Source of the DNA: Herbiconiux sp. VKM Ac-1786
Lineage (GTDB): Bacteria > Actinomycetota > Actinomycetes > Actinomycetales > Microbacteriaceae
Length of the DNA stretch: 64,000 nt
Reading direction: 5' to 3'
NCBI RefSeq assembly: GCF_015350805.1
Contig: NZ_JADKSG010000002.1
Coordinates: 310,001-374,000, forward strand
Below, piece by piece: positions 42,484 to 47,473 of this stretch. The stretch's first letter is position 1, and every line of letters starts with the position of its first letter. The position numbers were made by a program, and so were the translations under genes. The notes under the pieces are model-generated. The model worked only from the letters and a program-made list of their open reading frames with translations, did no database searches and was not told where the DNA came from.

Positions 42484-43440
42484 CTAGGGGGCGAGGCCCT
42501 CGAGCACGTCGTTCGACGGCACGAAGAAGGTCGTGCCCGTGACGGGGATCGAGACGTCGAGCATCCGGTCGTACGACCCGACGGGGTCGCCCACGTACAT
42601 CTGGCGCAGCATCTGCTCGATCACCCAGAGCTCGCGGGCGTAGCCGATGAAGTAGGTGCCGAACTCCCCGGCCCCGGGCCGCCCGAACGGCATGTTGTCG
42701 CGCAGGATGTCGTGCTCCACCCCGTTCGCGTCGACGACCGTCGCGAGCCCCTTGTGCGACTTGCGCGCACCGGGCTCGTCCTCCAGCTCGACGTTGTCGA
42801 GCTTCGTGCGGCCGATGATCTTCTCCTGCAGCTCGACCGGCAGCGTGTTCCAGGCGGTGAGGTCGTGCAGGTACTTCTGCACGACGACGTAACTGCCGCC
42901 CGCGAAGGCCTCGTCCTCCTCGCCGACGATCGACCAGTGCGCCATGCCGGCGCCGGTCGGGTTCTCGGTGCCGTCGACGAAGCCGAGCAGGTCGCGCGAG
43001 TCGAAGTAGCGGAAGCCCGTGGTCTCGTCGACCACCGTCACGGCGTCGCCGAGCTTTCCGAGCAGCAGCCGCTCCAGCTCGAAGGCGAGATCGGCCCGCT
43101 CGCTCCGGATGTGGAACAGCAGGTCGCCCGGGGTCGAGGGAGCCGTGTGCACCGGCCCGCGCACCTCGAAGAAGCGGCGCAGCTGCGCGGGACGGGCATC
43201 CTGGCCGAACCGGTCCCAGGCGTCGGAGCCGATGCCGACGTTGCAGGAGAGGTGCCCGTTGAGGTCGCGGAAGCCGACGGCGCGCACGAGCCCGCCGATG
43301 TCGGAGATCACGTCCCGCACCCGCTCGGCCGCCTCGTCGCCCTCGGCGATCGAGACCACCAGGAAGATGGCCGAGGTCGACAGGGGCGCGTCGACGCTCT
43401 GCGGCTGGATGGGGGTGCGGTCCCACGCTTCGTCGTGCAT
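42484..43440 (-). CDS. DyP-type heme peroxidase
   Basis: 318 residues, class B-like size. It oxidises dyes, phenolics or porphyrin-like compounds with hydrogen peroxide. The distal aspartate is in GFVDGTENP. The proximal heme histidine is in RKSHKG, and the distal arginine and asparagine are in ILRDNMPFG, at the spacing seen in the Rhodococcus DypB enzyme. No Tat or Sec signal, so it is cytoplasmic unless loaded into an encapsulin; no encapsulin gene is in the window. It is divergent from a PadR regulator. Confidence 0.94.
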   Translation of the reverse strand: MHDEAWDRTPIQPQSVDAPLSTSAIFLVVSIAEGDEAAERVRDVISDIGGLVRAVGFRDLNGHLSCNVGIGSDAWDRFGQDARPAQLRRFFEVRGPVHTAPSTPGDLLFHIRSERADLAFELERLLLGKLGDAVTVVDETTGFRYFDSRDLLGFVDGTENPTGAGMAHWSIVGEEDEAFAGGSYVVVQKYLHDLTAWNTLPVELQEKIIGRTKLDNVELEDEPGARKSHKGLATVVDANGVEHDILRDNMPFGRPGAGEFGTYFIGYARELWVIEQMLRQMYVGDPVGSYDRMLDVSIPVTGTTFFVPSNDVLEGLAP

Positions 43441-43457
43441 GACGAAATCCTATTGGC

Positions 43458-43509
43458 TTGACAGCCGAACAGTACCGATATATCGTAAAGCTATCGCGAA
43501 CAGTCGCGA
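43458..43509 (+). promoter_or_regulatory. padR promoter with overlapping palindromes
   Basis: TTGACA (43458..43463), 17-base spacer, TATCGT (43481..43486). The palindrome CGATATATCG (43476..43485) covers the -10, and two TCGCGA sites (43494..43499 and 43504..43509) lie around the start point. The layout fits PadR autorepression and control of the divergent peroxidase gene. Confidence 0.65.
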
Positions 43510-43535
43510 CATTCAGATTTGACAACGAAAGGCGG

Positions 43536-44123
43536 ATGCTCATGCGACGCATTCATCACACCCCCTCCTTCGAGCGCTCTCCCCACGGGCACGGCCCCGG
43601 CAGCGGTTTCGGTCCGGGCTTCGGCCCCGGCGGTTTCGGCGGCGGCTTCGGCCCCGGTTTCGGGCCGCGCGGCGGTCGTGGAGGCCGGGCCCAGCGCGGA
43701 GACGTGCGGGCGGCCATCCTGTCGCTGCTCGCCGAGTCGCCCTCGAACGGCTACGGCCTGATCAAGGCCATCGCCGAGAAGACCGGCGGAGTCTGGCGCC
43801 CCAGCCCCGGCTCCATCTACCCCACTCTTCAGCAGCTCGTCGATGAGGAGCTGATCGTCTCCACCGGAGACGGCCGGCGCACCGAGTTCGAGCTGAGCGA
43901 CTCCGGGCGGGCCTACGTGGCCGAGCACGGCGAGGAGCTGGAGCGCGCCTGGCAGGCCACCGCCGGTCAGTCGCCTGCCGACCAGGAGTTCCAGGCCAGC
44001 GCCGCGAAGCTCCTCGGCGTGCTGCACCAGTTCCGCACGGCGGCCACCGACGAGCAGCGCGCTCAGGCCGTCGAGAAGATCGACGAGGCGCGCCGCGCCC
44101 TCTACCTCATCCTGGCCGAGTAG
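43536..44123 (+). CDS. PadR family transcriptional regulator
   Basis: 195 residues. A Gly/Phe/Pro-rich low-complexity N-terminus (about residues 15-50, FGPGFGPGG repeats) precedes the winged-helix domain (GDVRAAILSLLAESPSNGY, then WRPSPGSIYPTLQQLVDEEL). A C-terminal dimerisation helix pair follows. The ATG at 43536 has AAAGG a few bases upstream; an ATG two codons later is possible. It likely represses itself and the divergent DyP peroxidase. The stop is 3 bases from the convergent hydrolase stop. Confidence 0.92.
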   Translation: MLMRRIHHTPSFERSPHGHGPGSGFGPGFGPGGFGGGFGPGFGPRGGRGGRAQRGDVRAAILSLLAESPSNGYGLIKAIAEKTGGVWRPSPGSIYPTLQQLVDEELIVSTGDGRRTEFELSDSGRAYVAEHGEELERAWQATAGQSPADQEFQASAAKLLGVLHQFRTAATDEQRAQAVEKIDEARRALYLILAE

Positions 44124-45366: not shown

Positions 45367-46026
45367 GTGCGACGTGCTGCCGCCCTCGTCCGACTCGCGG
45401 TGGCGGTCGTCGCGGTGGTGGCCCTGGTCTTCGACGTCGAGTACACGCTCGGCTTCAGCACCTTCTCGACGGTCAACTACTTCCTCTACTTCACCTTCCA
45501 GAGCAACGCCGTGAACGTGCTGGTGCTCGCCGCCTCGGGGCTCGCGATGCTGCGCCCGTCCCGCCGGCGCCTCTCCGCCTGGGCGGGCGGCATCCGTGGG
45601 ATCGTGACGACCTACGTGATCGTCTCGGGCATCGTCTTCGGCACCATCGTCACCCAGGCCTCGAGCCACCAGTACCGCATCGAGGTGCCGCTCTCCAGCC
45701 AGGTGCTGCACTTCTGGATCCCCGGCTACCTGATCCTCGACTGGATCGTCGGCATCGGCCGCCCGCGCCTGCTCTGGCGCACGGTGCCGATCTCGCTCGG
45801 GTTCCCGATCGTCTGGGGCGTGTTCACGCTCATCCGCGGGTCGATCGTGGGCTGGTACCCGTACTTCTTCCTCGACCCCGGCCAGGTCACGCCGCCCGAG
45901 TTCGTCTTCTACGCGGGCATCGCCCTGGCGCTGTTCGCGGGCATCACCGCCCTGCTCGCCTGGATCAGCCGGCTGCCGTCGGCTCCGGAGTGGCGGTCGG
46001 GGTGGCGACGGCGTCGGGGTCGATGA
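45367..46026 (+). CDS. Pr6Pr family membrane protein
   Basis: 219 residues, GTG start. About six membrane helices. The segments YFLYFTFQSNAVNVLVL, PLSSQVLHFWIPGYLILDW and RGSIVGWYPYFFLDP are characteristic of Pr6Pr/FAR-17a-AIG1-like membrane proteins; some animal relatives hydrolyse fatty acid esters of hydroxy fatty acids, but the bacterial role is unknown. A -10-like TAGCGT lies shortly upstream. Its last 62 bases overlap the convergent amine oxidase gene, giving a basic tail SGWRRRRGR. Confidence 0.85.
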   Translation: MRRAAALVRLAVAVVAVVALVFDVEYTLGFSTFSTVNYFLYFTFQSNAVNVLVLAASGLAMLRPSRRRLSAWAGGIRGIVTTYVIVSGIVFGTIVTQASSHQYRIEVPLSSQVLHFWIPGYLILDWIVGIGRPRLLWRTVPISLGFPIVWGVFTLIRGSIVGWYPYFFLDPGQVTPPEFVFYAGIALALFAGITALLAWISRLPSAPEWRSGWRRRRGR

Positions 46027-47473
46027 ACGGCACGAGGGTCGCGAGGGCCGCCTCGACGAACTCGTCGTCGCCGAGGGCAGCTCCCACGGGCACGTCGTCG
46101 GCCGCGGTCAGCCCCACGAGGATCGCCTGACCCGTCGAGGGCAGCAGGTTGATCCACTCCGCCACCACGGCGGTGTCGTCGATCACCGAGAGAACGGTCG
46201 CCTCGGTCGACCAGAACGGCTCGTCGAAGCGCAGCCAGAGCTGCTCGAGCTCGCCCACCCCCAGGGCGTCGATGGCGTCGAGGGTCGGCTGCGGCAGCGC
46301 CGGGGCGAACTCGATCGCCCCGGTCTTCAGCACACCCAGCGGCACGGTCACCACCACGCGGTCGACGTTCAGCGACTCGCCGCGGCCGAGCCGGAGGCTC
46401 ACCCCGTCGTCGTCGTACCCGATGCGGATGACCGTGCTCGAGAGCACCACGTCGAGATCGTCGAGCGCGGCCTCCACGACGGCGTCGAGCCCGCCCACGA
46501 CGAGGCGGGGGGCGTCGGGCCCGTCGCCGGACGGCGGCTCGGCGACACCGTAGGACGCCGAGAGCTCGAACGCGCTGGCGCCCGCCCGGGTGGCCACCGC
46601 GGTGTCGAGGTAGTGCGCCAGCCGGTCGGCCGGCGAGACGCCGTCGGCGTCGGGCGCGGTCGGCACCGCCTCGGCGCCGGAGGCCGACAGGGCCGAGGCG
46701 AGCGAGACGTCGGCGGGCTGGGCGCGGGCCCACGCCACGGCGGCGGACACCGCATCCGGCCCCACCGTGCTCGGCGGGTCGACCTCGCCCGAGGCCGTGC
46801 GCACCTCGGAGTCGCCCGCGAGGCTCAGCGTGTCGACGTCGGAGGCCAGCAGCGCGTCGTCGATGTCGGCGCCCGACACGGTGGGGGAGCCGAGCTCGAC
46901 CGGGAACGGCCATCCGCTCTCCTCCCGGGTCAGGATGCGCCCGCCCACCCGATCGCGCCCCTCGAGCACCACCACGTCGAAACCGGCGTCGGCCAGTGCC
47001 CGGGCCGCCGTCGCCCCCGCGAGCCCGGCCCCGATCACGGCGATGCGCTCACCGTCGTCGGCGATCGCGCGCACCCGCTCGGCGGCCGAGGTTCCCGACT
47101 CGAGGGCGCCCTGCAGGGTTCCCGGATGCTCGGACGCCACCGCCTCGCCGGCGAAGACCACCCGGTCGCCCACGGTCTCGCGGAGCGTCGCCCGGTCGCC
47201 CGGGCCCGCGCCGACCGGCGTGCTGCTGAACGAGCCGAGCGAGAACGGGTCGGTCGACCAGGAGCTGCGGAGGTACCCGGCCGGGCGCGGAACGGGGGAG
47301 AGCGGCGTCGGGGCGGGCGATCCGGTCGGCGTGGGCGTCGGCCGGGGGGCGTCGGGCGTGCACGCCGTCAGCGCGGCCAGCGACAGGGCCGACACGGCCC
47401 CTGCGAGGAAGGTTCGTCGCTCGATTGCCAATTCTGCGGTGCCGTTTCTGCCTCGGTGAGCCCGTGCGGTCAC
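45965..47473 (-). CDS. Exported flavin amine oxidase-like protein with permuted domain order
   Basis: About 502 residues. A Tat/lipoprotein signal ERRTFLAGAVSALSLAALTAC is followed by a Pro/Thr linker. Then comes SSWSTDPFSLGSFSSTPVGA and DRVVFAGEAVASEHPGTLQG, the segment that in monoamine/polyamine oxidases lies at the C-terminus and completes the FAD site. Only after it comes the Rossmann motif IAVIGAGLAGATAARALADA with GRDRVGGRI, normally at the N-terminus, then TVPLGVLKTGAIEFAPALP. The chain ends soon after, with no second FAGEA block. The order is thus circularly permuted. All FAD elements are present, so activity is plausible. The GTG at 47473 and a TTG at 47431 are possible starts. Its 3' end overlaps Pr6Pr. 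Confidence 0.85.
   Translation of the reverse strand: MTARAHRGRNGTAELAIERRTFLAGAVSALSLAALTACTPDAPRPTPTPTGSPAPTPLSPVPRPAGYLRSSWSTDPFSLGSFSSTPVGAGPGDRATLRETVGDRVVFAGEAVASEHPGTLQGALESGTSAAERVRAIADDGERIAVIGAGLAGATAARALADAGFDVVVLEGRDRVGGRILTREESGWPFPVELGSPTVSGADIDDALLASDVDTLSLAGDSEVRTASGEVDPPSTVGPDAVSAAVAWARAQPADVSLASALSASGAEAVPTAPDADGVSPADRLAHYLDTAVATRAGASAFELSASYGVAEPPSGDGPDAPRLVVGGLDAVVEAALDDLDVVLSSTVIRIGYDDDGVSLRLGRGESLNVDRVVVTVPLGVLKTGAIEFAPALPQPTLDAIDALGVGELEQLWLRFDEPFWSTEATVLSVIDDTAVVAEWINLLPSTGQAILVGLTAADDVPVGAALGDDEFVEAALATLVPFIDPDAVATPTATPEPTAAG

Follow-up and report, generated by a model that had tools for sequence, protein, structure and literature searches.

Flavoprotein amine oxidoreductases of the PF01593 superfamily (MAO, PAO, LSD1/LSD2 and NicA2) canonically begin with the Rossmann segment and end with the FAGE block. 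In the accessible parts of PMC3184146, K661A abolishes the activity of LSD1, in which Tyr761 is a cage residue, and Lys300Met slows flavin reduction by maize PAO 1400-fold. According to the accessible text of PMC12224317, almost all members of the superfamily conserve the catalytic lysine, and a substitution of it in one enzyme is suggested as a possible cause of that enzyme's slow O2 reaction. NicA2 and Pnao, the subject of the same paper, are Tat-exported amine dehydrogenases of this superfamily, nearly all of which keep the lysine according to the portions available and which have a cytochrome c gene as neighbour; no word beginning with “permut” occurs in the paper. Permuted FMN-bind1 proteins (PMC11334425) are likewise extracytosolic flavoproteins with a permuted domain, but in the accessible text that domain is FMN-bind1 and the flavin is attached by flavinylation; the term “amine oxidase” is absent from the main text. 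At the level of titles and abstracts, a literature search (subscription papers and preprints mostly outside its reach) turned up no paper that describes a permuted amine oxidoreductase, in agreement with an earlier note on this DNA, which knew of no amine oxidase with such a topology.

Here we describe such a protein, encoded in a 64,000-nucleotide stretch (the window) of Herbiconiux sp. VKM Ac-1786 (contig NZ_JADKSG010000002.1, positions 310,001 to 374,000). Sequence comparison identifies it as a natural circular permutant of the flavoprotein amine oxidoreductase (PF01593) fold, with the last ~75 canonical residues at the front. It shares with the superfamily the profile matches at both ends and in the second half, together with the GxGxxG, GGR, FAGE and WSTDP motifs, and differs in having the last block first and Gln in place of the catalytic Lys. 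The best solved match by sequence is LSD2/KDM1B (4gu0), a histone demethylase which differs in its normal order and in the Lys at the aligned position.

The last block of the fold at the front of the chain

The gene (45965-47473, minus strand) is a single open frame that starts with GTG and runs for 502 codons before the stop; the composition profile has no abrupt shift there. Its parts and the neighbouring gene are listed below in window coordinates, with the basis of each assignment in brackets.

45965..47473, minus strand: permuted flavoprotein (PF01593 / FAO superfamily), 502 aa (ORF list, Pfam, 22 relatives)
47360..47473, minus strand: predicted Tat signal with lipobox, residues 1-38, RR 19-20, Cys38 (sequence; columns of alignment A1)
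47297..47359, minus strand: Pro/Thr-rich linker, residues 39-59 (sequence)
47066..47296, minus strand: relocated C-terminal block, residues 60-136, WSTDPF..GSFS..FAGEA..GTLQGA..SG (Pfam 369-442 of 443; LSD2 chain 699-775)
46874..47065, minus strand: junction (137-141) and start of the Rossmann dinucleotide-binding segment (142-200) (NAD_binding_8; LSD2 337-394)
46505..46873, minus strand: putative substrate-domain region, residues 201-323, poorly conserved (alignment A1; domain named after the canonical fold)
46019..46504, minus strand: second half of the FAD and substrate domains, residues 324-485 (Pfam 198-366 of 443; LSD2 528-692)
46241..46243, minus strand: codon of Gln411, which aligns with the catalytic lysine (LSD1/LSD2 Lys661) (LSD2 alignment; column counts)
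45367..46026, plus strand: Pr6Pr family membrane protein, 219 aa (NCBIfam NF038065, 112 bits)

The signal segment reads RRTFLAGAVSALSLAALTAC, with the twin Arg at 19-20 and the lipobox Cys at 38; a hydrophobic stretch completes the motif within residues 19-38, so that the predicted Tat/lipoprotein export of the earlier note holds. The relocated block (residues 60-136) contains GSFSSTPVGAGPGD and VVFAGEAVASEHPGTLQG, the Rossmann motif IAVIGAGLAGATAARALADA begins at residue 144, and a Thr/Pro tail, TPTATPEPTAAG, closes the frame ahead of the stop. This 502-aa ORF departs from the canonical order, in which the Rossmann segment leads and the FAGE block closes the chain: each of these motifs occurs once, in the order claimed, and inspection of the translation, including a search for an overlooked normal copy, found no FAGEA block at the C-terminal end.

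Three lines of evidence bear out the permuted order: i) Against PF01593 (443 positions), the native protein scores 182.4 bits (gathering cut-off 19.8; E=2.5e-53) in three stretches, the best of which places residues 324-485 on profile positions 198-366, while residues 59-138 alone match positions 369-442 (63.8 bits, E=2.4e-17), far beyond chance; the trimmed native chain gives 181.7 bits, again in three stretches, and the rotated chain (front block placed last) gives 197.8 bits in two, the best one spanning 198-442 unbroken. ii) In a phmmer search of the PDB, residues 142-200, 324-481 and 60-136 match LSD2 chain positions 337-394, 528-692 and 699-775 respectively; after rotation the stretches are collinear and the score rises from 104.5 to 116.4 bits. 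iii) The relatives described below share the order. Thus the rotation test and the PDB match indicate that no matched part of the profile is repeated and that the parts follow one another in rotated order, the cut falling near positions 366-369.

The spacing between the SG of the old last helix and the Rossmann GxG was 20 residues in 46 of the 60 permuted sequences parsed (five more were unparsed), 17-20 in 57 of them and 17-25 overall; the old termini are thus connected via a short link of near-constant length. In a 23-row alignment of permuted proteins (A1), all 23 members match PF01593 at E<=1e-5 and the FAD-site residues (GAG..G, the E of VLE, GGR and the GE of FAGE) are invariant; the permuted flavoprotein would bind FAD, and its front block would pack as in the canonical fold. 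A junction profile of 139 positions (A2) matches 230 PDB sequences; among the 60 listed, every match is split in two, and none is a permuted solved structure.

Distribution and origin of the permuted order

A close-relative search of species genomes with the protein as query returned 22 loci, and alignment of these homologues found the same permuted order in all 22; their titles are those of Microbacteriaceae or its genera, except for one “Corynebacterium-like bacterium”. The A2 junction was spanned (start <=45 and end >=105 of 139) in 135 of 398 Microbacteriaceae genomes. Outside the family it was spanned in a total of 24 genomes: 4 from an order sample (396 genomes, cut-off E 1e-20), 14 from a class sample (394 genomes, 1e-20; one match on a contig edge) and 6 from a phylum sample (396 genomes, 1e-23), all three samples lying within one phylum and also including family genomes. 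By eye, the chains of the permuted proteins inspected open at the same place. Plasmid records gave nine matches, none covering 80% of the query; four were retrieved, and all four have the normal order and were used as controls. The permuted order is a real, widely conserved rearrangement.

In total 90 permuted and 27 normal-order proteins were collected, and 91 (65 + 26) remained after 80% clustering; two short permuted ORFs (L081 and L093) and the window's own duplicates (L001 and L030) were left out of the tree set. A quick tree of the 91 rows needs five changes of order. Without three long-branch controls (88 rows) it needs two, and a single permuted clade is not rejected (p-AU 0.399); one origin of the permuted proteins is possible. 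A hidden second FAGE block was also considered and rejected, no permuted ORF of the tree set having a second A2 match above 10 bits. The four proteins L082-L085, from two other families of the order, are permuted, carry no Tat signal, have Trp at the cage column and form a separate long-stemmed branch. In six close pairs dN/dS (NG86) was 0.10-0.19; therefore these genes do not look like decaying genes, and purifying selection keeps the protein.

Loss of the catalytic lysine on a protein with an export signal

Gln411 aligns with a lysine, chain residue 615 of 4gu0, which we take to be Lys661; the cage column of the alignment is presumably that of LSD1 Tyr761. In the lysine column all 26 normal-order controls have K (clustered rows, mostly picked because they match the C-terminal half of A2 strongly, and hence not a random sample), and the 21 permuted proteins outside Microbacteriaceae have K in 19 and R in two, counting among them one from a family genome that was placed in another clade (L088). 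The 44 Microbacteriaceae representatives are far more varied (K 11, T 11, Q 7, L 5, V 4, R 3, S 2 and A 1), so that the catalytic lysine is absent from 33 of them, as it is from the window protein. On the 88-row tree the K state requires at least six changes, four of them forced by starred branches. The cage column is aromatic in 26/26 controls, in 21/21 permuted proteins outside the family and in 24/44 Microbacteriaceae representatives (Phe in the window protein); K and an aromatic cage residue occur together in only ten of the 44. The Trp of WINL and the Thr of GT are each kept in 43 of the 44 (one gap for the Thr). Thus, with Gln411 at the site of the flavin-N5 lysine, the label “amine oxidase” is unproven for the window protein, and the active amine oxidase of the earlier note was not borne out.

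Export calls were made from sequence motifs, by script or by eye. Among the permuted Microbacteriaceae representatives a Tat signal with lipobox was called in 39/44 by script and in the other five by eye, and the RR and Cys columns are almost invariant in A1. A Tat signal was called in 9/21 permuted proteins outside the family by script (16 by eye) and in 3/26 controls by script (8 by eye). The Cryobacterium breve protein (L014) lacks the in-frame Tat signal that its near relatives L011 and L012 carry; a start-proximal frameshift is possible.

The Pr6Pr neighbour and competing explanations

The Pr6Pr gene is convergent with the permuted gene, and their 3' ends share 62 nt. By tblastn, Pr6Pr lies tail-to-tail within about 1.6 kb or less in all 22 relative loci (L003-L024) and in L086 and L087. 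In a search of 199 genomes, of which 62 bear a permuted gene, a convergent Pr6Pr gene was present within 4 kb downstream in at least 50 of the 62. Pr6Pr itself was found in 168 of the 199, in one to five copies, including genomes in which no permuted gene was found, such as the family genomes G001 and G008, with no junction-spanning A2 match listed. At E 1e-5 no Pr6Pr gene was found next to L088 or next to the permuted loci retrieved from other families, where contig ends truncate some of the loci. Lysine-bearing members (e.g., L010, L011, L015 and L021) also adjoin Pr6Pr; the neighbour is therefore not tied to lysine loss. Most sampled Microbacteriaceae versions have lost the usual catalytic lysine and adjoin a conserved membrane-protein gene. 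Being convergent, the Pr6Pr and flavoprotein genes are not one operon, and adjacency is not proof of interaction.

The Pr6Pr profile has no PDB match by sequence, and our literature search found no paper containing the word Pr6Pr. Kinship with AIG1 was considered and rejected, as only 1/19 members matches PF04750 (E=0.34). Of the remaining window neighbours, the whole block is conserved only in the Herbiconiux-like loci L003-L009; the FHA-MerR-MerR set is present in L013 and an aldo/keto reductase in L020. Outside Microbacteriaceae, two clusters of neighbours recurred in at least three loci, but both were ORFs antisense to the permuted gene or alike, and none was accepted. Three genomes (G076, G139 and G191) have Pr6Pr copies flanking the permuted gene on both sides. 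A few kb from the flavoprotein, the window has a Dyp-type peroxidase gene (42484-43440, minus strand) beside a PadR-type regulator (43458-44123, plus strand). A Pfam scan of eight nearby window genes found no cytochrome c family; Pr6Pr stands here where NicA2 and Pnao have a cytochrome c gene (PMC12224317, accessible text).

By sequence, the canonical last helix continues into the first Rossmann strand via a short, near-constant link, and the cut falls directly ahead of the canonical last block. In the explanation that we prefer, the chain would fold around FAD in the cytosol, leave folded via Tat, and become a lipoprotein on the outer face of the membrane, anchored through the former C-terminal block, where it would act as a redox flavoprotein. 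Family members without the lysine would most likely still oxidise a substrate, with a poor O2 reaction, and electrons might be passed to, or work shared with, a membrane partner, for which our guess, and leading candidate, is Pr6Pr. We give this account, taken whole, an even chance of being right. A further-reaching version, in which a single ancient permutation founded its own Actinomycetota branch and Microbacteriaceae mostly gave up the lysine and formed with Pr6Pr a two-part cell-surface redox system that sends electrons into the membrane and not to O2, is quite improbable as a whole.

Other explanations deserve weighing against this redox lipoprotein. The protein may be a non-catalytic, FAD-dependent structural or sensory lipoprotein, which kept the fold and the FAD site while the active site drifted; the invariant FAD-site residues beside variable lysine and cage columns, the rarity of K with an aromatic cage residue, the low dN/dS and the conserved membrane neighbour are all consistent with it, but the near-universal retention of the WINL Trp and the GT Thr points to continued maintenance of a substrate pocket, and we regard this explanation as somewhat unlikely. 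That the protein is an ordinary exported amine oxidase, its chain merely permuted, with the same chemistry, O2 as acceptor and Gln411 tolerated, is unlikely: the strong PF01593 match and the Phe at the cage column would fit, and the permuted proteins outside the family, which nearly all keep the Lys and always an aromatic cage residue, indicate that permutation is compatible with normal active-site residues, but this explanation has to face the lysine missing from the window protein and three quarters of the family representatives, and the effects of K661A in LSD1 and Lys300Met in maize PAO (PMC3184146, accessible parts). An assembly artefact or local inversion mimicking the permutation is vanishingly improbable, being refuted by independent assemblies: the check for a misjoin was negative, the order recurs in all 22 loci, from several genera, and in the 135 family genomes, and no evidence in support of an artefact was found.

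That a two-domain FAD enzyme occurs in permuted form in nature, and has conserved that form in many genera, indicates that a short link can connect the canonical termini of this fold, and the chain open elsewhere, with the FAD-site residues invariant. Annotation by PF01593 alone would miss both the permutation and the lost lysine, because the profile still matches strongly in pieces. Pr6Pr is a conserved membrane neighbour that is apparently unstudied. Such permuted proteins can serve as a test, set by nature, of how modular the fold is and in which order it folds, and the family supplies natural variants (K, T, Q, L, V, R, S and A) at the position to which control of amine and O2 chemistry is attributed.
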